A stretch of DNA of 64,000 nt from contig CACXES010000141.1 in NCBI GenBank assembly GCA_902766745.1, positions 62,001 to 126,000 of the forward strand. Direction: 5' to 3'. The notes beneath the pieces were generated by a model that worked only from the letters and a program-made list of their open reading frames with translations, was not told the DNA's origin and did no database searches. Shown here piece after piece: positions 28,088 through 39,174 of the stretch. Origin of the DNA: an uncultured Ruminococcus sp. GTDB lineage: Bacteria; Bacillota; Clostridia; Monoglobales; Monoglobaceae. Both the position numbers and the translations under genes were made by a program. Position 1 is the stretch's first letter; every line of letters begins with the position of its first letter.

Positions 28088-29728
28088 ATGCATAAGTTTA
28101 GTTTGAAGAATTTATCTTCTCTCGAAAAGGTGATGCCTGCACTGTCACTTCCTTTGGCGGAGTATAACGGCGCAAGCTGTCTGCGCGGCGAGAGGTTTTC
28201 ATATCAGATAGCGATGATAGCGAACGGGGAGGATGTCGGACCGGCTGTTCGTGCGGATATAAGTGTATGCTCCGACCTCGATGTAAAGGTCTATGACGTG
28301 GTTTCGGTTCCGGTCAGCATGCCTGCGTTTGCGAATGAGTATGACAATGCTTTTATAACACGTGAAAGTGCTGTTATTCCCGATCTTTTAACCGTAAATG
28401 ACGGAACTGTGGCTGTATCGGCTTACTTTTATAAGGCACTGTGGCTCACGGTTGACGTTGGTAAGAATGCGGCTCCCGGTGAGCATAAAATCACGGTTAG
28501 CTTCGAGAAGGACGGAGAGGTGTTGGGCGAGAGTGTGTTCGGCTTAAATGTTATAGGTGCCGAGCTTCCGAAGCAGAAGCTTATCTTTACCCAATGGTTC
28601 CATTGCGATTGTATAGCGTCCTACTACGGCTTGGAGCCTTTGTCGGAGGAGCATTGGAGTTATATAGAAAGGTTTGTTAAAACCGCAGCGGAGTCGGGTG
28701 TGAATATGCTGCTTACGCCGATATTCACACCGCCTCTCGATACCAAGATCGGCGCGGAGAGGCCGACGGTTCAGCTGATTGACGTTACATATAAGGACGG
28801 GGTTTACGGCTTTGACTTCACAAAGCTGACACGATGGCTCGCTGTGTGCAGACGGAACGGAATAGAATATATCGAGATTTCACACCTGTTTTCGCAATGG
28901 GGTGCAATGTGCACACCGAAAATCGTTGTATACGAGAACGGCGGTGAGGTAAAGAAGTTCGGTTGGCATACCGATTCCCTGTCGGAGGAGTACAAGGACT
29001 TTTTGTCGCAGCTTTTGCCGAGGCTTACCGAATACCTTTCGGAGAACTGGGATAAGGACAAGGTTTATTTTCATATATCCGATGAGCCGAGCAGAGATCA
29101 TATTGAGCGTTACGGCGAGATACAGGAGTTTATAAAGCCGCTTATTGACGGATTTCACCATATGGATGCAATATCCGATTATGAAATATACGAAAAAGGA
29201 TTTATAGAAACTCCCGTGCCGACCATACGCACGATTGACAGCTTTATCGGCCGAGGAATAGAAAACCTTTGGGCGTACTACTGCTGCGGCGAGGGAAAGT
29301 ATAATCTCAGCAACAGATTTATTGCAATGCCGTCCTCAAGAAACAGGATTATCGGGGCGCAGCTTTACAAATATGACATAAAGGGCTTTTTGCAGTGGGG
29401 ATATAACTTTTATTATTCTCAGCTGTCAACAAGGCTTGTAAATCCGTATGTAATCAACGATGCGGACAGCGGCTTTCCGGCAGGGGATGCCTTCTCGGTA
29501 TATCCCGGGGCGGACGGCCCCGAGCCGTCGCTCAGACTTTTTGTGTTCGGTGATGCGCTTCAGGATATGCGTGCAATGCAGCTTTTGGAGAGCCTTTGCG
29601 GCAGAGCTGCAGTAACGGAGCTTATCGATTCGGAGGGCGAGATTGACTTTCGGACATATCCGCGCAGCGCAGAATATATTCTGAACCTGCGTGAGAGAAT
29701 AAACAAGATGATTGCGGAGAATATTTAG
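28088..29728 (+). CDS. GH123-like glycosidase (DUF4091 protein)
   Basis: 546 aa, no signal peptide. It has an N-terminal beta-sandwich (about 1-165) and a TIM-barrel-like domain (about 165-480) with WFHCDCI, a YFHISDEPSRDH segment and the C-terminal DUF4091 region. GH123 enzymes, for example N-acetyl-beta-galactosaminidase, use a neighbouring Asp-Glu pair with substrate-assisted catalysis; D332-E333 in SDEP fits. The next genes (nagB, nahK, nagA) handle N-acetylhexosamines, which supports release of GalNAc or GlcNAc in the cytosol. Relatives of DUF4091 with other substrates exist, so the exact specificity is open. AAAGGGGA precedes the ATG. Confidence 0.8.
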   Translation: MHKFSLKNLSSLEKVMPALSLPLAEYNGASCLRGERFSYQIAMIANGEDVGPAVRADISVCSDLDVKVYDVVSVPVSMPAFANEYDNAFITRESAVIPDLLTVNDGTVAVSAYFYKALWLTVDVGKNAAPGEHKITVSFEKDGEVLGESVFGLNVIGAELPKQKLIFTQWFHCDCIASYYGLEPLSEEHWSYIERFVKTAAESGVNMLLTPIFTPPLDTKIGAERPTVQLIDVTYKDGVYGFDFTKLTRWLAVCRRNGIEYIEISHLFSQWGAMCTPKIVVYENGGEVKKFGWHTDSLSEEYKDFLSQLLPRLTEYLSENWDKDKVYFHISDEPSRDHIERYGEIQEFIKPLIDGFHHMDAISDYEIYEKGFIETPVPTIRTIDSFIGRGIENLWAYYCCGEGKYNLSNRFIAMPSSRNRIIGAQLYKYDIKGFLQWGYNFYYSQLSTRLVNPYVINDADSGFPAGDAFSVYPGADGPEPSLRLFVFGDALQDMRAMQLLESLCGRAAVTELIDSEGEIDFRTYPRSAEYILNLRERINKMIAENI

Positions 29729-29796
29729 TATTTTACCGTATGTCATATGCCGATAATATACATTAGCAGACATTGGGAAAAGGAGTTTTTTGATTT

Positions 29797-30531
29797 ATGA
29801 ATATTATAGTATGCGACAGCTATGACGAGCTGTCTGAGAGTGCCGCAAAAATTGTGGCGAAGCAGGTGAATGAAAAGGCGGATTGCGTTCTTGGCCTTGC
29901 TACGGGTTCAACGCCTGTGGGTATGTACAATGTGCTTGCGAAAAAAAACAAGGCAGGCGAGGTGGACTTTAGCAGAGTAAGGTCCGTAAACCTTGATGAA
30001 TATTACCCGATTTCGCCGGACAATCCGCAGAGCTATCACTATTTTATGAAGGAAAACCTGTTTTCCAAAATAAACATTGATATGGCAAACACGCATATCT
30101 TAGACGGAATGTGCAAGGATGCCGAGGCGGAATGCGAACGCTTTGAAAGGCTGATAGAAAGCTTGGGCGGCGTTGACCTGCAAATCCTCGGTATCGGTCA
30201 GAACGGGCATATAGGCTTCAACGAGCCCGATTCAAGCCTTAATTCGCACACGCATCTGACGAAGCTTACGGAGAACACAATCAGCGCAAACTCTCGGTTT
30301 TTCGATGATATATCGGAGGTGCCGACTATGGCGCTTACAATGGGTATAGGCACGATTCTTGCCGCACGGAAGATAATACTTCTTGCAAACGGGGCGGCAA
30401 AGCGCAACGCAGTATCGGAGCTCTTGGATAACAGTATAACGACAGAGAGCCCTGCGTCAATGCTTAAGGTTCACAAAAACGTAATTCTTATCTGCGACAG
30501 GGATGCATATCCCGGCGGAGCGAATGTCTGA
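29797..30531 (+). CDS. nagB: Glucosamine-6-phosphate deaminase
   Basis: 244 aa. It converts glucosamine-6-phosphate to fructose-6-phosphate and ammonia in the cytosol. Family motifs are complete: GLATGSTPVGMY, SVNLDEYYPI (catalytic Asp), GIGQNGHIGFNEP with the catalytic histidine loop, and SMLKVHKNV at the C-terminus. AAAAGGAG precedes the ATG. The gene is the second of the operon GH123-nagB-nahK-nagA and acts after nagA. Length is like that of the short monomeric Gram-positive form, without the allosteric extension of E. coli NagB. Confidence 0.96.
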   Translation: MNIIVCDSYDELSESAAKIVAKQVNEKADCVLGLATGSTPVGMYNVLAKKNKAGEVDFSRVRSVNLDEYYPISPDNPQSYHYFMKENLFSKINIDMANTHILDGMCKDAEAECERFERLIESLGGVDLQILGIGQNGHIGFNEPDSSLNSHTHLTKLTENTISANSRFFDDISEVPTMALTMGIGTILAARKIILLANGAAKRNAVSELLDNSITTESPASMLKVHKNVILICDRDAYPGGANV

Positions 30532-30554
30532 GAAAGCGGCAGGGGAGGAGAAGC

Positions 30555-31631
30555 ATGAAAAAATATTCATTAAAAGAAATATGCTCGGTATTCAGTATAG
30601 AGACTAATATCGAGCCTTACGGAAACGGACATATAAACGATACATATCTGTGCGAGACCGCACCGAGGTTTATACTTCAGCGTATAAATTCAAATGTTTT
30701 CAAAAATCCCGGTGAGGTGATGGAAAATATTGCGAATGTGACCGGGTGGCTCGGGGAAAAGATTAAAGCGGAGGGCGGCGATCCGTCAAGGGAGACGCTT
30801 ACATTAATCAAGACCAAGGACGGAAAAAACTATTACGAGGCAGATCCCGAAAACTGCTTCAGAATGTATAAATTCGTTGAAAGATCGGTCAGCCGTGACA
30901 TTGCCGACGATCCGATTCAGCTTTATGAGGCAGGAAGGGCATTCGGGAAATTTCAGAGAATGCTCAGCGACTTCCCGGCGGATACGCTTCATGAGACGAT
31001 TGTGGACTTTCACAATACACCCGTGCGTGTAAAGCAGCTTGAGGCCGCTGTCGAAAGCAATGCGGCGGGCAGGCTGGCATCCGTTTCTGCGGAGGTGGAG
31101 TTTGCAAAACGCTACAGCAAGTATGCCTCGCGCGTGGTTGACGAAATGGCGGCAGGCAGAGTGCCTCTGCGTGTGACGCACAATGACACAAAGCTGAACA
31201 ATGTCCTGTTCGATGCTGACACGGGCGAGGGAATGTGCGTTATTGACCTTGATACGGTTATGCCCGGCTCGGTTTTGTACGACTTCGGCGACGCACTCCG
31301 CTTCGGTGCGTCCAGCGGAAGCGAGGACGAAACCGACCTCGATAAAATTTGGTTTGACCTCGAGAAGTTTGAGCAGTTTGCGAAGGGATTCCTGTCCGAG
31401 ACGGCAGCATGCCTGACGGAAACGGAAATTGAGCTTTTGCCGCTGTCGGCACTGCTTTTGACCTATGAATGCGGAATAAGATTTCTTGCCGACCACATAA
31501 ACGGGGATACGTACTTCAAGGTTCACCGTGAGAATCATAACCTCGACAGAGCGAGAACACAGTTTAAGCTTGTGGCGGATATCGAGAAAAAGCTTCCGAA
31601 GATGGCGGATATAATAAAAAAATATGTTTGA
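30555..31631 (+). CDS. nahK: N-acetylhexosamine 1-kinase (NahK/LnpB-like)
   Basis: 358 aa. NahK of Bifidobacterium phosphorylates GalNAc and GlcNAc at C1. The match runs along the whole protein: YGNGHINDTYL, RFILQRIN, YKFVERSVS, LRVTHNDTKLNNVLFD (catalytic Asp in HND), CVIDLDTVMPGSVLYDFGD and CGIRFLADH. It is a member of the aminoglycoside phosphotransferase fold. GGGGAGGAG precedes the ATG. Making HexNAc-1-phosphate requires a further mutase or uridylyltransferase to reach NagA's 6-phosphate substrate; no such gene is in the window. Confidence 0.9.
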   Translation: MKKYSLKEICSVFSIETNIEPYGNGHINDTYLCETAPRFILQRINSNVFKNPGEVMENIANVTGWLGEKIKAEGGDPSRETLTLIKTKDGKNYYEADPENCFRMYKFVERSVSRDIADDPIQLYEAGRAFGKFQRMLSDFPADTLHETIVDFHNTPVRVKQLEAAVESNAAGRLASVSAEVEFAKRYSKYASRVVDEMAAGRVPLRVTHNDTKLNNVLFDADTGEGMCVIDLDTVMPGSVLYDFGDALRFGASSGSEDETDLDKIWFDLEKFEQFAKGFLSETAACLTETEIELLPLSALLLTYECGIRFLADHINGDTYFKVHRENHNLDRARTQFKLVADIEKKLPKMADIIKKYV

Positions 31632-31641
31632 GGCGATATAG

Positions 31642-32781
31642 ATGAAGGCGATTATCAATGCGAAGGTTGTAACCGAAAATTCTGCGGCAGACGGTGGAAT
31701 CTTGTTTGATGAGCGAATATGCGAAATCGGCGATATACACGCAGGCGGGGCAGAGGTGATTGATGCCTGCGGCGCATATGTCATACCGGGGTTTGTAGAT
31801 GTTCATATCCATGGTTATAAGGGATTTGATACATCGGATGGGAATAAAAGCGGTATCGAGAATATCGCAAAGGCTTTGACATCGAACGGCGTCACCGCCT
31901 GGTGTCCCACAACAATGACCGTTTCCATGGAGGATATACAGACCGCTCTTGACCAAATCGGCGAGCTTATGCAAGGCGGCGAGGGGGCAAGGGTTTTGGG
32001 CGCAAACGTGGAAGGCCCGTTTATCAACCCCGAAAAAAAGGGAGCTCAGTCGGCGGAGTTTGTCAAGAAGCCAAATGCGGATTTTATAATTAAAAATAAA
32101 GATAGAATAAAGCTTGTAACACTGGCACCGGAGGTTGACGGCGGCATAGAGTTTATTAAACGTGTTACGGCAGAGACGGAGGTGAACGTGTCTGTCGGTC
32201 ATACAGCCGCAAATCTTAACCTGGCGTGCGCTGCCTTTGCTGCAGGGGCACGACAGGTGACACACCTTTTTAATGCAATGCCGCCGCTCAATCATCGTGA
32301 GCCGGGAGTTATCGGTGCGGCACTTACGGACGACAGAGTCTACTGCGAGCTTATTGCCGATACGTTCCATATAAACCCCGTTTTATTTAAAATCCTCGAT
32401 AAAGTAATTGGAGATAGGCTTGTGCTGATTACCGATTGTATGAGGGCGGGCGGTATGCCGGACGGAGAGTATACACTGGGCGGTCAGCCGGTAAGCGTTC
32501 GCGGCATCGAATGTCGTCTTTCGGACGGTACGATAGCAGGCAGTATTCTGACAATGAATATGGCTGTCAAGAACTTCATGGACGCAGTAGGATGTCCGAT
32601 ATGGGAGGCGGTGAAAAAAGCCTCGCTCAACCCGGCACGGTCGGTGGGAGAGGATGAGAATATCGGCTCTCTTGCGGTCGGTAAGCGTGCTGACATTGTT
32701 ATATGCGACAGTAATATAAATATTCAAAAAACTATTATCAGCGGCAGTCTTGCATATGATTGTAACAGGCAAATTGTATAA
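31642..32781 (+). CDS. nagA: N-acetylglucosamine-6-phosphate deacetylase
   Basis: 379 aa. An amidohydrolase that removes acetate from GlcNAc-6-phosphate to give glucosamine-6-phosphate for NagB. The metal-binding DVHIHGYKG, NVEGPFINP, VSVGHTAAN, NAMPPLNHREPG and the catalytic ITDCMRAGG are present. Residues around GPFINP and MPPLNHR fit substrate binding in family members. Start ATG 31642 is 11 bases after nahK with GAGG upstream. Last gene of the plus-strand operon. Confidence 0.95.
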   Translation: MKAIINAKVVTENSAADGGILFDERICEIGDIHAGGAEVIDACGAYVIPGFVDVHIHGYKGFDTSDGNKSGIENIAKALTSNGVTAWCPTTMTVSMEDIQTALDQIGELMQGGEGARVLGANVEGPFINPEKKGAQSAEFVKKPNADFIIKNKDRIKLVTLAPEVDGGIEFIKRVTAETEVNVSVGHTAANLNLACAAFAAGARQVTHLFNAMPPLNHREPGVIGAALTDDRVYCELIADTFHINPVLFKILDKVIGDRLVLITDCMRAGGMPDGEYTLGGQPVSVRGIECRLSDGTIAGSILTMNMAVKNFMDAVGCPIWEAVKKASLNPARSVGEDENIGSLAVGKRADIVICDSNINIQKTIISGSLAYDCNRQIV

Positions 32782-32851: not shown

Positions 32852-34534
32852 TTAATCTATCGAATAGGTTTGCCTGTTATAGTCTACCGTGATTTTTCGT
32901 CCGTTCGAATAGGTAACCTCAAAGACATTTTCTGAAATTTCCTCATGCTTTAGTATATATTCGGTCTGCAAATCCGATACGGCGGCGTACTCATCACACG
33001 CACACTTTATAACCCTTGCCGCATGGCACAGATTCTCATCTGTGTCAAGGGTCAGATCCTCTTTGCCGAGCCAGTCGTCCTGATTTCCGCCCTTCATAAA
33101 TTTTGAATAAATATAAAACGCCGGGCGTGCGCCGTATTCCGTAATCGTAAGGCGGTTTTTCGCATCCTTTATGGGATAGTTCACCGTATCGGTAGTGGGA
33201 TTGGCGAGGATTATGCCGTGGTATACCAATGACCACAGCGGAATTTCGCGGTCGAGCATTTCGTCGGGGGTTGCGGGCCACGAAATATAAAGTCCGAAGT
33301 CGAGGTATTCCGATGCGAAGTCGAAAACGCCCTCCGAGGCAAATCCGCCGAAAAGCTTGTGGCAGTCATTCATAATATGCCTGTAATGCTCCAAGGTTTG
33401 GCGCGGATTTGAGGGATGCTCCGTATCATGGCACCAGCGGAGCGGAATGACGGACATAACGTCTATGTAGTGCAGACCCTCAAAGCCCAGCTCCGCCACC
33501 TTCGGCAGATCCTCTGCGGCGAACCGCTCTGCCGCAGTCGGACAGAGGTTGTACATTCTGCCGCCGCTCCATGCCATCGGATTTATACTGAGGCTGCCGT
33601 CGCTCTCCTTGGCGACTATGTCCTCGGAAAACCTGTCGGCAATGCTGTAACAGTCGGTGCTGTTTGTGTGACAGACTATTTTATAGCCACATTCCTTTGC
33701 ATAAGCGATAAGACTTTTGAGCTTGTCCTCGCCGCCGAGCCTCGGCTCAACGGGGAAAAGCTGCGGATAGCGGCCGTCATGACCGCTGACATTCCAACCC
33801 ACAAGACATATCTCTGCCTTTTCAACACCCTGACGTTTAAGCTCGGTTATAAACTCGCATACTCTGTCAAAGGTGCAGGCAACGTACATATCCGGCTCGT
33901 TTTCCTCTGTTTGCTCAAGTACGGCGGGCGGCGCAGGCTTCCAGCCCATGCGGATTCTGATTTCCGGAGCTTGCACCGCATAACGGAGAGCCTCTCGCTC
34001 CGCCTGCTTTTCAATAATCGGTCTGCATTCGCCTCGGCTCAGCTTGTATTCCCTGTATGCAGCCGCCATTTCCGAATAGCCGCCGTCAGGGTCAAGCTCA
34101 ATAATAACGGCGGATATATCCTCGTACGGGGCGCAGCCGTCTAAGACGAAGCGCAGCCGTGCGTAATATTTTCCGTCCCTTACTCCGAAAACAAGATGAA
34201 AGACTGCCGACATTCCGTCTGCGATAACAAGAGTGCAGCGGTTTTGAGTCTTTATTCCGAAAATCGGCATAAGAGCCTGACGAAAGCATCTCTCACCGTC
34301 AGGCTTATCGTTAAATAAGCAAAGGCGGCTGCCCTTAGCGTCGGCGTCGGATATGACATAGTACCCGCTCTCGCCTGCGCTTGCACAGATGCCGTCGCTG
34401 TACAAGTCAATATATTCCGTGCCGGCCGGCACCGCCGCAGCACTGACGGAGATGCGGCCGTTGTCGTATGTAGATTCTATCTCTTCGCCCAAATTGCTTT
34501 GGCCTTTAAAATTATTTAAAGCTGTCAAGGTCAA
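32852..34534 (-). CDS. TIM-barrel glycoside-hydrolase-like protein (GH101/GH129- or DUF5696-like)
   Basis: 560 aa, no signal peptide. An N-terminal beta-domain (about 30-190) precedes a barrel with ICLVGWNVSGHDGRYPQ, IAYAKECGYKIVCHTN, LHYIDVMS (D358) and GGFASEGVFDF (E401). A catalytic Asp on one strand and a Glu about 43 residues on, with the GHDGRYP context, recalls GH101/GH129 alpha-N-acetylgalactosaminidases and the DUF5696 proteins; the assignment is by motif, not by alignment. The start is uncertain: there is no ATG. TTG 34534 is close to a GGAG; TTG 34528 or TTG 34492 are alternatives. It overlaps the upstream gene and is the last of the operon 37438-32852. Confidence 0.6.
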   Translation of the reverse strand: MTLTALNNFKGQSNLGEEIESTYDNGRISVSAAAVPAGTEYIDLYSDGICASAGESGYYVISDADAKGSRLCLFNDKPDGERCFRQALMPIFGIKTQNRCTLVIADGMSAVFHLVFGVRDGKYYARLRFVLDGCAPYEDISAVIIELDPDGGYSEMAAAYREYKLSRGECRPIIEKQAEREALRYAVQAPEIRIRMGWKPAPPAVLEQTEENEPDMYVACTFDRVCEFITELKRQGVEKAEICLVGWNVSGHDGRYPQLFPVEPRLGGEDKLKSLIAYAKECGYKIVCHTNSTDCYSIADRFSEDIVAKESDGSLSINPMAWSGGRMYNLCPTAAERFAAEDLPKVAELGFEGLHYIDVMSVIPLRWCHDTEHPSNPRQTLEHYRHIMNDCHKLFGGFASEGVFDFASEYLDFGLYISWPATPDEMLDREIPLWSLVYHGIILANPTTDTVNYPIKDAKNRLTITEYGARPAFYIYSKFMKGGNQDDWLGKEDLTLDTDENLCHAARVIKCACDEYAAVSDLQTEYILKHEEISENVFEVTYSNGRKITVDYNRQTYSID

Positions 34535-35447
34535 AACTCCATTTCTCTCTTTTTCTGAACGGGGTCTTATACTTTTTCTTTAAAACGCCCTTTTCCTCAA
34601 GATGAACATAACATTCAACATCACAGGCTCTGCCGCATATTGAGCATTGATATGCGTGCTGTGCCGGTGGGTAGAAGTATATCTTGTCCAGTATCTTTTT
34701 TGCCGTGTCGGGCGTGACCTTTGCCTCGCCGGCTATTATCTCGAGGCGGTTGTCCATGTCCGAAAAAGCGTCAGGCGGCATAAATGGGTTGCGTGTACCG
34801 TTTGCGCCGTTGTAATATACTGCGCACTGCCATGGGTCAACCTTGCCGTTTTCGTCTATTGCTCCGCCGGGACAGGCAGAAATGCACTTTCCGCACTTGT
34901 CGCACAGGTGCGGAGTATACTCCTCGGTCGCAGCTATCTCGGCATCGGTTAGAATGAAGCAGTAACGTATCATCGGACCGAAGTCATCGTTTAAAAGTGC
35001 GCCGTGGAGACCCAGCTCACCCAAGCCGCATTTTACGGCGGTATGCTCAAAATCAATTTGGGTTTCCGCCGTTTTTCCGCGGTAGACTGCATCGTATGCA
35101 ACCTCGGGATTGGTGGAGTCCGTCTCTGCCATTATCTGCTGATGTCTGCGTTGGGGCAGAGCGATAAAGCCGTTTTCCTCAAGCATCATGGAGATTTTAA
35201 GCTGTGCCATGGGCATTACAGTCTCCTCCATGTTTTCAACAGCCATAGTGGTGTACTGATAGTAGGTGCTGCCCTCCTCAATACCCCTGTAAATCCCCCG
35301 AAGTATCCGAAAGCCCAAGCCGATAACCGTCTTTGTTTCGGGCATAATCTTGAATATGGGGTCGTCCTCTGAAAATCGGGTTGACGGCGCAAAGCCGACT
35401 GAGTCTGTGCCGTTTGCTTTTGCGAGTTCTATTATTTTTTTCTTCAT
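34512..35447 (-). CDS. QueG/reductive-dehalogenase-like Fe-S protein, copy C
   Basis: 311 aa, soluble, no Tat signal. Residues 139-160 (KCGLGELGLHGALLNDDFGP) resemble the corrinoid-binding core of reductive dehalogenases and epoxyqueuosine reductase. Two iron-sulfur sites follow: C182-x2-C185-x2-C188-x3-C192-P and C268-x2-C271-x3-C275-x3-C279, with C208 in WQCAVYY between. Start ATG 35447 overlaps the preceding stop (TAATG). The ORF can be extended upstream to 35522 but this lies inside the preceding gene. The natural substrate is unknown; reductive cleavage of an organic substrate by a cobalamin or Fe-S centre is inferred from the superfamily. Confidence 0.75.
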   Translation of the reverse strand: MKKKIIELAKANGTDSVGFAPSTRFSEDDPIFKIMPETKTVIGLGFRILRGIYRGIEEGSTYYQYTTMAVENMEETVMPMAQLKISMMLEENGFIALPQRRHQQIMAETDSTNPEVAYDAVYRGKTAETQIDFEHTAVKCGLGELGLHGALLNDDFGPMIRYCFILTDAEIAATEEYTPHLCDKCGKCISACPGGAIDENGKVDPWQCAVYYNGANGTRNPFMPPDAFSDMDNRLEIIAGEAKVTPDTAKKILDKIYFYPPAQHAYQCSICGRACDVECYVHLEEKGVLKKKYKTPFRKREKWSFDLDSFK

Positions 35448-36340
35448 TATATTTCCCCCACTATATGCCTGTAGCAGGCAATGTCGCATTTCCTTCCGCA
35501 TAGACAGGGCGAATAACCCCACTGAGTATTGGGAAGAAAGTTCATTTCCTTGTATATTTCCCGTGCGGATTCTGCGTCAAACCGCTTCTCACCGTTTATT
35601 ATCGCATCACGCTCCGGATTTCCCATGAGAAAATCGTCGGTCATAAACGGATTGGACTTGTGCGCACCCTTGTAGTAAACACTGCACTGCCAGGTGTCAA
35701 GACCGTTTTCGCTTATGGCGTGCCCCGGGCAGGCGGAAACACATTTGCCGCAGCGGTCGCAAACGCTTTCGCTCAGCGGCTCGTCACATTCAAGCGGCGC
35801 ATCGGTAATGATAAAGCAGTAGCGCATAAGCGGTCCGTACTTTCTGTTGACGATTTTTCCGCTCATACCCATTTCGCCTAAGCCGCACGCCTTTGCCGCC
35901 TTGCCGAAGTCGATAATCACGTCGGGAACGGGCTTGCCCTCTTCGACGGCCTCGGCATGAATCAATTCATAGGTGTCCAAAACCTCGGGATTGGTTTCCT
36001 TGTCGCCCTTTATCCTGAGGTTCGGAATTGACTTCTGCAGACAGGCGTCATAGCCTTCGTTTTCGATTAATGCACCCATTTTAAGCAGGAAAATCTCTGC
36101 CATTTCCTCGTCTATGTATTTTACCCCGATAGAGGTATATGTATAATATTGACTTCCCTTGTCCATTGCCTTGTAAATCCCTTTCGGAACGGCAAAGCCA
36201 AAGCCAATTATACACTTGGCGTTGGGCAGAATCATTTTCGGGTCACGCTGGGGATTTGGCTCTTCATATATATTGCCGATTCCACAGATTGTTGCGCCAA
36301 GTTCCTTCGCTCTTTGTTTAATATAATCACTCGTAATCAT
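35447..36340 (-). CDS. QueG/reductive-dehalogenase-like Fe-S protein, copy B
   Basis: 297 aa, the shortest of the three. It shares with copies A and C the KGSQYYTYTS segment (similar to EGTQFYQY), CGLGEMGMSG (152-161), KYGPLMRYCFIITDAPL, the cluster C194-x2-C197-x2-C200-x3-C204-P, DTWQC (C219) and NPFM. The C-terminal motif CLCGRKCDIAC (279-289) is spaced slightly differently from copy C. No membrane segment or Tat signal. It lies between copies A and C with gaps of 15 and -1 bases, so one mRNA is very likely. Function is unknown; the pairwise divergence suggests different roles or substrates rather than recent duplication. Confidence 0.75.
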   Translation of the reverse strand: MITSDYIKQRAKELGATICGIGNIYEEPNPQRDPKMILPNAKCIIGFGFAVPKGIYKAMDKGSQYYTYTSIGVKYIDEEMAEIFLLKMGALIENEGYDACLQKSIPNLRIKGDKETNPEVLDTYELIHAEAVEEGKPVPDVIIDFGKAAKACGLGEMGMSGKIVNRKYGPLMRYCFIITDAPLECDEPLSESVCDRCGKCVSACPGHAISENGLDTWQCSVYYKGAHKSNPFMTDDFLMGNPERDAIINGEKRFDAESAREIYKEMNFLPNTQWGYSPCLCGRKCDIACYRHIVGEI

Positions 36341-36355
36341 CTTTCACACCTCCGC

Positions 36356-37438
36356 TCATCTGTCCAGCTTCCACGCCTTTTTGGTGCGGAGCGGTTCCTT
36401 AAATCTGTCTTCCATGCAGCCGCCCTTTTTCTCCAGAACGGAAACGCAGGCTCTTATACAGCCGCCGCATTTAGCCATGTTATAGCCGACCCAGCTTGGA
36501 AAGTACTTTGAAAGTGCGGTGTAAACCTTCATGATTTCCTGCTCGTTTGCAACGTCGGTCACACCCTCCATAAGGTCAAGGCTGCCGTTTTCGTTTTTGT
36601 CCCAAACCTCTTTCGGCACAAAGGGATTGTAATATCTTCCGGCGTGGGTGTAGAATGCATAGCATCTCCACATATCGATGTCGCCCCACTCGCAGATTTT
36701 TCCGTCTAAATTAACCGTGATCTTCTTCCCGGAATTTAAGGACGGAATACAGCCGCCGGGACATTCGCGGACACAGGCGCCGCATCTGCGGCAAAGGGGC
36801 TTTCCGCTGTACATTTCATCGTACTCGAGCTCGGCGTCGGTGAAGATAAACGCAACACGCTGAAGCGGCCCGAACTGCGGCGTCAGCAGCATCTTGCTCC
36901 AGCCGATCTCGCCCAGGCCGCAGGCAACGGCGGCAAGCCTGAACTGAAACTGAAGATCGGGCGCAACGCTGTTTTCCTCCCTGGCAGGCCGTGTAAACTG
37001 CACGCTTCTGTGATGTGCGGTCGCTGTTTTGGCGTGCTCGTTTACTTCAATTTGCTCCTCGGGGGAGAGGGTGTTTCCGGGACTTCCGTCCATGTCGGAC
37101 ACTACGCCTCTTGCGCCCGTGTTCCTGTATACAAAGGCCTCATAGCCCTCATCCTCGATTATCTGTCCCACACGGTATAAAACCGCCGGGGCGAAGATTT
37201 CGTTTATTCCGCCGTATGCCATTGAGGGGTACTGATAGAACTGTGTTCCCTCCTCGATTCCCCTTTGGACTCCGCGAGGAATTCTAAACACAAAGCCGAT
37301 TACGCTTTTTGCCTCGGGAAACAAAAATTGCGGATTCATCTCATCGGGCGCACCGTCGAAACGTGACATGGGTCCGATGCCGCAGGCGTCGGCACCTGCG
37401 TCGAGAGCTGCCTGCTTGATCATTTCTGAGGTAAGCAT
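36356..37438 (-). CDS. QueG/reductive-dehalogenase-like Fe-S protein, copy A
   Basis: 360 aa, first gene of the operon and the longest. Features: EGTQFYQYPSM (63-73), CGLGEIGWSKMLLTPQFGP (173-191), a clear [4Fe-4S] motif C216-x2-C219-x2-C222-x3-C226-P, MWRC (C259), NPFVP and a second site C324-x2-C327-x3-C331. It has two inserts relative to copies B and C: about residues 110-160 before the core, and a region after cluster 1 (about 232-255). It lacks a Tat signal. AAAGGGTGG upstream of ATG 37438. Divergently transcribed from an AraC-type regulator gene 37569. Confidence 0.75.
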   Translation of the reverse strand: MLTSEMIKQAALDAGADACGIGPMSRFDGAPDEMNPQFLFPEAKSVIGFVFRIPRGVQRGIEEGTQFYQYPSMAYGGINEIFAPAVLYRVGQIIEDEGYEAFVYRNTGARGVVSDMDGSPGNTLSPEEQIEVNEHAKTATAHHRSVQFTRPAREENSVAPDLQFQFRLAAVACGLGEIGWSKMLLTPQFGPLQRVAFIFTDAELEYDEMYSGKPLCRRCGACVRECPGGCIPSLNSGKKITVNLDGKICEWGDIDMWRCYAFYTHAGRYYNPFVPKEVWDKNENGSLDLMEGVTDVANEQEIMKVYTALSKYFPSWVGYNMAKCGGCIRACVSVLEKKGGCMEDRFKEPLRTKKAWKLDR

Positions 37439-37482
37439 TATACCACCCTTTCTGATTGCTTTTTTTGATTTAATTATTCATC

Positions 37483-37511
37483 TTGATTTTATAATATTAA
37501 TATGTTATAAT
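37483..37511 (+). promoter_or_regulatory. Promoter of the divergent AraC regulator
   Basis: TTGATT (37483-37488), 17-bp spacer, TATAAT (37506-37511), about 58 bp before the start at 37569. Confidence 0.7.
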
Positions 37512-37514
37512 CAA
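37486..37514 (-). promoter_or_regulatory. Promoter of the Fe-S protein/glycosidase operon
   Basis: Minus strand TTGATT (37514-37509), 17-bp spacer, TAAAAT (37491-37486). Its elements interlock with those of the opposite promoter: the -35 of one overlaps the -10 of the other, so the 32-bp region is nearly palindromic. Confidence 0.7.
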
Positions 37515-37519
37515 TGAAT

Positions 37520-37553
37520 AAAACAAATATATTTTTGCACAAAACAAATATAT
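37520..37553. promoter_or_regulatory. 13-bp direct repeat 21 bp apart, candidate AraC-type operator
   Basis: AAAACAAATATAT occurs at 37520-37532 and again at 37541-37553, exactly 21 bp start to start (two helical turns). AraC-family half sites are typically 21 bp apart. It lies in the leader of the AraC gene, next to the divergent promoters. Confidence 0.6.
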
Positions 37554-37568
37554 AGGAAGGTGAAAATT

Positions 37569-38417
37569 TTGAGAGCGGCAGATGTAAATCCATATATACG
37601 CTATGCGGCAAGGGTGCAGCTGTTTGCGTGGGATACGCCGACGATGGCGTATGACTGTCGGCTTTTGTATATAACAAACGGAAGCTGTACAATATACATT
37701 GGCGGAAGCCCGTATACGCTGAGCGGCGGTGATCTTGCCGTGTGGCGGCCGGGAACCGAGTATCGTTTTACAGAGGCGGAGGCATGCGAGGGGTATATTA
37801 TAAATTTTGATTTTACTCGGGATAACTCGGATTTAAGTGAGGTGTTTCCTCCGTCTGCTTCAGAGAGCTTTGATTCAGTGCATCTTATTGCCGCACCCGA
37901 GTTTACGGATTGCGGCGTTTTAAATATGCCGATTATTCGCCGCCGTGCCGACGGAATGCGGAGCAGTATAAGAAATTTATGCGGTGAGTTCAATCAGAAA
38001 AAGGTATTTTACAGTGAAATCTGCGGAGCGAAGCTAAAGGAGATTATATTTGATATCCTGCGTGAGATGCTTTTTCCGTCAAGCTCCACGAGTGAGATGC
38101 TTGACACCGTACTGAATTATATTAAGGAGCATTATCGTGAAAATATCACAAATGAAAGTCTTGGTGCGCTTATCGGCTATCACTCATATTATATAAATAA
38201 GCTTATGCTCGACTATGTACATACAACGCTGCACCAGTATCTGCTGAATTATCGAATGGAGGTTGCACAGGGAATGCTTTTAAATCCCGATAAGACCATA
38301 GGCGATATTGCCCGAGAGTGCGGCTTCGGTTCGATTTACTATTTTTCAAGGTATTTTAAGAAGAAAACAGGGGTAAGCCCTGCACAGTACAGAAAGCTGC
38401 GCCACTCTATGATATAG
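37569..38417 (+). CDS. AraC-family transcriptional regulator
   Basis: 282 aa. An N-terminal cupin-like domain (YDCRLLYITNGSCTIYIGG, YTLSGGDLAVWRPGTEYRF) and a C-terminal double HTH (NESLGALIGYHSYYINKLM and KTIGDIARECGFGSIYYFSR). The start TTG 37569 is preferred over GTG 37560 because AGGAAGG ends just before the latter; ATG is absent near the 5' end. It reads away from the operon 37438-32852 from an interlocking promoter, so it is the probable activator of that operon, responding to an unknown small molecule. Confidence 0.88.
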   Translation: MRAADVNPYIRYAARVQLFAWDTPTMAYDCRLLYITNGSCTIYIGGSPYTLSGGDLAVWRPGTEYRFTEAEACEGYIINFDFTRDNSDLSEVFPPSASESFDSVHLIAAPEFTDCGVLNMPIIRRRADGMRSSIRNLCGEFNQKKVFYSEICGAKLKEIIFDILREMLFPSSSTSEMLDTVLNYIKEHYRENITNESLGALIGYHSYYINKLMLDYVHTTLHQYLLNYRMEVAQGMLLNPDKTIGDIARECGFGSIYYFSRYFKKKTGVSPAQYRKLRHSMI

Positions 38418-38466: not shown

Positions 38467-39174
38467 CTACGCTGCTTTGAGATATTTGTAAACGATAGCC
38501 GCAAGGGCAGCACCGAGCAGAGGGCCGACAATGAATATCCAAAGGCAGGATATAGGTGCGCTGTTGCCGGAAATCAGTGCAGCAACTGCGGGGCCGAGGC
38601 TTCTTGCCGGGTTCACGGAGGTGCCGGTCAAGCCGATACCGAGAATGTGAACCAGAGTCAGAGTAAGGCCGATAAGAAGTCCGCCGAAGGAGCCGTGCGC
38701 AGCTTTCTTTGAGGTCACGCCCAAAACAGTAATAACAAATACAAATGTAAGAACTGCCTCGACCAAAAGCCCTGCCGCCCAGCTGTCACCCACGCCGGAG
38801 AGCCCGTTCGAGCCGAAGCCGAATGCGGCGTTTACCGGAGCGGTCATATCGGCAACGGAGCCGGAGACGAAAATAATTGCGAGAATCCCTGCGCCCGCAA
38901 GTGCGCCGAGACACTGTGAAATAACATAACCTATAAAATCCCGCACCGACATCTCACCGCCGATAAAAACGCCGAGAGATACTGCCGGATTGACATGACA
39001 GCCCGAAATATTACCGACAGAGTATGCCATTCCCACAACAGCAAGACCAAAGGCAAGTGCGGTCAGAATATATCCGCAGCCCTGATTTGCGCCGCAGCCG
39101 ACCAGCATTGCCGTTCCGCAGCCCATGATTACCAAGACCATTGTACCGATAAATTCAGCAATATATTTTTTCAT
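38467..39174 (-). CDS. Aquaporin/MIP-family channel
   Basis: 235 aa, six membrane segments with two half-helices. Both signature motifs are present: HVNPAVSLG and SVNPARSLGPA. The histidine before the first NPA and Arg after the second fit the water-channel (AqpZ-like) branch more than the glycerol facilitator, which usually carries Asp after the second NPA. The start ATG 39174 has GGGAGAG upstream. It is convergent with the AraC gene (only 49 bp apart) and has its own promoter. A role in osmotic balance, or in passage of small uncharged metabolites, is inferred. Confidence 0.92.
   Translation of the reverse strand: MKKYIAEFIGTMVLVIMGCGTAMLVGCGANQGCGYILTALAFGLAVVGMAYSVGNISGCHVNPAVSLGVFIGGEMSVRDFIGYVISQCLGALAGAGILAIIFVSGSVADMTAPVNAAFGFGSNGLSGVGDSWAAGLLVEAVLTFVFVITVLGVTSKKAAHGSFGGLLIGLTLTLVHILGIGLTGTSVNPARSLGPAVAALISGNSAPISCLWIFIVGPLLGAALAAIVYKYLKAA

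Follow-up and report, generated by a model that had tools for sequence, protein, structure and literature searches.

A Tandem Gene Module of Gut Clostridia Encodes a Candidate Third Family of Class III Cobamide/[4Fe-4S] Reductases

Introduction

To our knowledge, the class III B12 reductases characterised so far are of two kinds only, RdhA, represented by PceA of Sulfurospirillum and by NpRdhA, and QueG. Further families of this class probably exist and are hard to find, since no cobamide-binding motif is known for the class (PMC4646009). Here we describe three tandem genes, called A, B and C, in a 64,000-nucleotide stretch of DNA from an uncultured Ruminococcus sp. of the Monoglobaceae (this whole stretch is referred to as the window), together with the genes that accompany them in related genomes. 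We propose that their products form a new cytosolic family, which would be the third among the class III cobamide/[4Fe-4S] reductases and part of an inducible catabolic module, a reading to which we give somewhat better than even chances. An original prediction, made from the sequence of the window, had described three tandem reductase-like genes with particular lengths, motifs and tight junctions, which open reading frames and alignment confirmed, and had placed their products in the RdhA/QueG superfamily, in agreement with our profile search, Foldseek search and structure comparison of the model of A. It had also put the layout forward as one that is not known from any described system, and a search of the open-access literature, subscription papers lying outside it, likewise yielded no description of A-B-C with its partners.

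A, B and C Form a Branch of Their Own

The three proteins are 36-37% identical to one another and share a CGLGE(I/M/L)G core, a CxxCxxCxxxCP cluster, a WxC and a second Cys cluster. The core resembles the [A/C]GLGE of RdhA, A, B and C having Cys where RdhA has Ala before GLGE. In A the cluster ligands are eight Cys (216, 219, 222, 226, 259, 324, 327 and 331), retained in nearly every complete row of the alignment of module loci; The two [4Fe-4S] clusters of RdhA are likewise bound by eight Cys, and QueG shares the cluster ligands. When a profile built from 68 A, B and C sequences was compared with the PDB, RdhA structures (3e-18) and QueG (5e-16) were found. However, the scores of A, B and C with the RdhA profile TIGR02486 (36.6, 56.5 and 37.7 bits) remained far below its curated cut-off of 160.35, and those with the QueG profile TIGR00276 (27.3, 43.4 and 42.1 bits) far below 200. 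Pfam has no family for A and gives generic ferredoxin matches alone for B and C.

Unlike RdhA, the proteins are short and lack a Tat signal, as had been predicted: no twin-Arg sequence is visible in A, B or C, and the domain begins directly at the start. Like QueG, they thus appear to be cytosolic. No RdhB membrane anchor was recognised among the recurring neighbours, though no profile search was aimed at RdhB. The C-termini end about 8 to 31 residues past the last cluster Cys, and the helical repeat domain found at the C-terminus of QueG is absent, which speaks against the processing of a modified nucleoside considered in the original prediction.

In the phylogenetic tree, for which, as for the alignment, the RdhA and QueG comparison proteins were drawn from other genomes, A, B and C together with distant relatives formed one branch (support 100/100) apart from both RdhA and QueG, while RdhA formed one branch (97/88) that excludes them. 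A, B and C each formed a single branch (100/100, 99/100 and 100/99, respectively), that is, each paralogue has a single origin. Because the branches between the A/B/C, RdhA and QueG groups are long, the deep branching order and the root are uncertain. Full-score QueG occurred in none of the 38 family genomes versus 41 of 101 genomes of the phylum, and weaker QueG-like matches do occur in the family.

The predicted structure of A (predicted local distance difference test, pLDDT, 82; predicted template modelling score, pTM, 0.84) gave a Foldseek E value of 8e-8 and matched RdhA and QueG with VIA Z scores of 15-16 over about 208-232 aligned residues at 2.9-3.8 Å, followed by MMACHC (Z 8-8.7), CblD (Z about 7) and, well below these, flavin mononucleotide (FMN) nitroreductases (Z 4-5); residues about 111-162 are poorly modelled. 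The model shows the shared fold of class III cobamide enzymes, in which a cobamide domain is joined to a ferredoxin module.

All class III enzymes have an active-site Tyr, PceA Asn272 corresponds to an Asp in QueG, and QueG has no counterpart of PceA Arg305 (PMC4646009). In our alignment, Tyr70, Arg194 and Asn106 of A correspond to PceA Tyr246, Arg305 and Asn272, respectively. The Tyr is present in 86 of 86 A, 83 of 84 B, 82 of 83 C and 14 of 14 RdhA sequences, and Tyr70 is likely the equivalent of the active-site Tyr, an assignment made from the sequence motif. Likewise, the Arg was found in 86/86 A, 83/84 B, 82/82 C, 10/10 distant relatives and 13/14 RdhA, compared to 0/6 QueG, which has a DYH motif that A, B and C do not carry. 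The Asn occurs in A (84/86) and RdhA (11/14) and is absent from most B, which have S, A or T at this position, and from most C, which have R or K. Since the proteins did not qualify as RdhA or as QueG, while the features of the superfamily that could be tested were found in them, we regard them as a candidate third class III family, set in a gene neighbourhood of a new kind.

A Module with Two Constant Partners

A scan that covered each species with a single genome found relatives of A at 184 loci; the counts of loci given here and below refer to the best 80 of these 184, and, the search patterns having been derived from A, this list favours close relatives. In the 80 loci, A is 82-93% identical, nearly all hosts are uncultured Clostridia, and the named sources among the record titles are mostly the gut of deer, goat, sheep, cattle and buffalo. 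The order A-B-C is conserved in 78 loci, the contigs of the remaining two ending before B or C is complete. The original prediction had named as its own counter-case that the genes would lie separately in relatives and match housekeeping QueG; instead they are linked, and the QueG scores and the tree speak against such a match.

In 65 of the 80 loci a divergent AraC gene occupies the position that it has in the window, and directly upstream of the module, in 75 of them, lies a gene for a protein of about 330 amino acids with a predicted U32 fold. No Pfam family is specific to this protein, PF01136 being touched weakly by 16 of the 65 members (best E value 0.0023). Its model (pLDDT 95) matched Mk0906 (5d88) with Z 19.1, the next best match reaching 12.7, and shows the U32 TIM barrel. 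The U32 family comprises the Mk0906 peptidase as well as O2-independent hydroxylases, UbiU/UbiV and RNA-modifying ones; U32 oxidases carry the motif CX6CX15CX3C, and the fold family includes Fe-S hydroxylases (PMC11574389). The partner shares with them the barrel and four invariant Cys (80, 189, 193 and 222), but their spacing (C80, C189-X3-C193, C222) does not fit this motif, and its setting looks catabolic. The original prediction could not include this protein because its gene lies outside the window.

Among the 38 genomes of the window's family, A-B-C is present in seven, and the U32-fold gene was found in six of these versus none of the 31 others (Fisher p about 2.5e-6, relatedness ignored). 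Of 398 phylum genomes sampled, five contained A-like genes (E 1e-20). Strong U32-fold matches came from the window genome and G082, the latter having A-like genes as well, and G072 gave one weak partial match. The constant partners of the module are thus the U32-fold protein and the AraC regulator rather than the glycosidase. In addition, a small cupin gene occurs in 30 of the 80 loci; in two loci (L107 and L117) the cupin gene is separated from B by an additional gene coding for about 300 amino acids.

In four genomes (G011, G034, G035 and G023) A is 90-93% identical, compared to 84-87% for serine hydroxymethyltransferase from the same genomes. Together with the patchy presence of the module, this difference in sequence identity suggests horizontal spread or very strong constraint of the module. 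No match was found on plasmids or viral contigs. The window genome itself holds a second A-B-C copy (L022, G000:C42:87891-90787), the A of which is 67% identical and in which C is directly followed by a radical SAM/SPASM gene that is 66% like its counterpart in L023. In other lineages a minimal form occurs, consisting of one A-like gene and a U32-fold gene without B and C (L053:2007-4409; L149:8417-10458). Tandem pairs of A-like genes with no U32-fold gene recognised nearby (L054, L147, L148 and L150) apparently represent a sister arrangement; the pair at L147 adjoins a LacI-type regulator. Directly upstream of the module AraC gene, locus L028 (164-7400) carries genes for a glycyl radical enzyme and its activase, a Gfo/Idh-like protein and a flavin adenine dinucleotide (FAD) oxidoreductase, and the upstream region of L114 has a run of gene lengths resembling it.

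The Glycosidase Fills a Variable Slot

In the window the operon ends in a glycosidase-like gene, which the original prediction had regarded as the defining partner. Its product belongs to GH129/DUF5696 by the family profile (PF18952, 147.2 bits; cut-off 25.6) and by both acid positions, Asp358 and Glu401 aligning with Asp435 and Glu478 of the GH129 alpha-N-acetylgalactosaminidase NagBb (5wzn; phmmer 1e-14), which we take to be the catalytic acids. It shares the barrel with NagBb and with GH101, but the sequence match is a distant one. No paper naming DUF5696 was found in the open-access literature.

Across the related loci, a GH129-like gene was present in 21 of 80 and a Gfo/Idh/MocA dehydrogenase gene in 21 of 80, both together once. 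GH43, GH116, GH106-like and, weakly, GH88-like proteins alternate with them at this place, and the downstream neighbours also include serine hydrolases with a beta-lactamase fold and an aldose epimerase accompanied by sugar importers. Of the four-gene layout that the original prediction had described, the A-B-C order is therefore conserved, while the glycosidase is an interchangeable neighbour; we rejected it as a core partner, and it fills a variable, accessory slot of the module.

Proposed Role of the Module

The three paralogues, the U32-fold Fe-S protein and the AraC switch may be viewed as one transferable catabolic module, in which the probable task of A, B and C is to cleave a particular bond of a compound derived from plants or sugars. 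In the mechanism that we propose, the AraC regulator would respond to an inducing compound that is probably either a glycoside from plants or an unusual sugar, and the locally variable glycosidases or the Gfo/Idh dehydrogenase would prepare this compound. A base-off cobamide would sit in the nitroreductase-like domain of all three proteins, or at least of A, and the ferredoxin domain with its two [4Fe-4S] clusters would feed it with electrons, passing from a cytosolic ferredoxin-type donor through the clusters to cob(I)amide. A, which bears the full RdhA-type Tyr-Asn-Arg set, could then reductively cleave a C-O or other C-X bond via cob(I)amide, while B and C, because they lack the Asn, might carry out further steps or act as electron-relay or partner subunits. 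The U32-fold protein would be a second Fe-S enzyme of the same pathway. It is conceivable, as a tentative possibility well short of an expectation, that the three-protein cobamide/[4Fe-4S] reductase and the U32-type Fe-S enzyme serve a single anaerobic pathway in the gut, by which oxygen functions of plant glycosides are removed or rearranged. If true, a new type of reaction would be added to those of class III B12 enzymes, and a U32-fold protein would have a role in catabolism.

Several observations weigh against the assignment to a cobamide-dependent catabolic module. The placement of Tyr70 requires about 10-11 extra residues in a helix, whereas the ungapped register puts Glu80 there. A conserved stretch of A (about 105-165) is modelled with low confidence, the model carries no ligand, and cobamide binding cannot be read from the sequence because class III has no motif for it (PMC4646009). 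The U32-fold gene is not linked to the window operon, its one copy lying on another contig (G000:C22:6323-7333), and the variable glycosidase links could be ordinary gut-genome background. A cobalamin riboswitch, a sign that the genomes handle corrinoids, was found in six of the seven module-bearing family genomes, among them that of the window, but also in most family genomes without the module, while the module genome G032 (82% complete) has none. Given its presence in most family genomes with or without the module, the riboswitch was rejected as a module marker.

Among the other explanations, an electron-relay complex is an unlikely but serious one: the clusters of A, B and C would pass low-potential electrons, without cobamide chemistry, to a U32-fold catalyst of O2-independent hydroxylation or dehydroxylation. 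The co-occurrence of the U32-fold protein, with its four invariant Cys, the presence of Fe-S hydroxylases in its fold family (PMC11574389) and the two-gene form of L053 and L149, which is what would be expected of an enzyme and its reductase, are all compatible with such a complex. However, the RdhA-type Tyr and Arg, plus Asn in A, are retained far beyond what an electron carrier needs, the closest folds to A are all B12 proteins, and the Cys spacing of the partner is unlike that of the U32 oxidases. We consider it improbable that the proteins handle corrinoids, as dealkylases, decyanases or cobamide chaperones like MMACHC and CblD or as activators of another corrinoid enzyme. Although these two share a related B12-binding domain fold and are the next structural matches, the RdhA and QueG matches are about twice as strong, MMACHC has no ferredoxin domain (PMC4646009), and the gene context differs. 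The recurring neighbours included no recognisable corrinoid methyltransferase or uptake gene, and the window contains no cobalamin riboswitch. B12-binding-domain matches in the window genome amount to one.

Reductive dehalogenation in the true sense, of a natural organohalide that a glycoside may have released, which resembles the dehalogenation of an aglycone put forward in the original prediction, has similarly poor prospects. The Tyr-Asn-Arg set of A and the fold would suit it, but the proteins branch separately from RdhA and score 37-57 bits with TIGR02486 against a cut-off of 160. No halide-specific neighbour was recognised, most hosts are bacteria of the herbivore gut that carry varied glycosidases, and nothing here points to halogenated substrates. 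As for a duplicated housekeeping QueG that modifies tRNA or nucleosides, the weak TIGR00276 matches (27-43 bits) and the lack of a full-score QueG elsewhere in the window genome would leave room for it. Yet the cut-off lies at 200 bits, A, B and C stand apart from QueG in the tree, they carry the RdhA Arg and end without the QueG repeat domain after the clusters, and the module is AraC-linked and patchy, with 7 of 38 family genomes having it. On the scores, the tree and the search for QueG in the genome we rejected this identity, and it seems to us scarcely credible.

The candidate third class III family thus comes as a well-delimited module with a fixed gene set and a regulator, present in many genomes, which makes the question testable. 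It would also place a U32-fold protein in a metabolic setting and would point to a reductive step that has gone unrecognised in the metabolism of the gut, mainly that of herbivores.

Layout of the Operon in the Window

A, B, C and the GH129/DUF5696-type glycosidase gene form one operon behind the divergent AraC gene, which is transcribed away from it (Table 1). Head to tail, A and B are 15 bases apart, the stop of B overlaps the start of C, and the C and glycosidase genes overlap by about 22 bases. An Rfam scan of the window gave no match. An aquaporin/glycerol-facilitator-like gene (38467-39174) adjoins the AraC regulator and was not seen in related loci. Tail-to-tail with the operon lies an amino-sugar cluster (GH123, NagB, an APH-type kinase and NagA; 28088-32781), which we rejected as a pointer to amino-sugar substrates: a NagB-like gene occurs near one related locus and the others near none, and the cluster looks incidental. 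The ATG of A is preceded by an AGAAAGG-type ribosome site.

Table 1. Features of the operon and its regulator, in positions of the window.
Feature	Position	Strand	Evidence
Glycosidase-like TIM barrel, 560 aa, TTG start	32852..34534	-	DUF5696, related to GH129/GH101
Gene C, 311 aa, paralogue of A, counted from the ATG of the TAATG that joins it to B	34512..35447	-	
Gene B, 297 aa, paralogue of A	35447..36340	-	
Gene A, 360 aa, RdhA/QueG-superfamily protein	36356..37438	-	
A+T-rich divergent promoter region, 121 bases, regulator to A	37439..37559		sequence
AraC-family regulator, 285 aa, GTG start	37560..38417	+	HTH_18 6e-19, AraC_binding 3e-5

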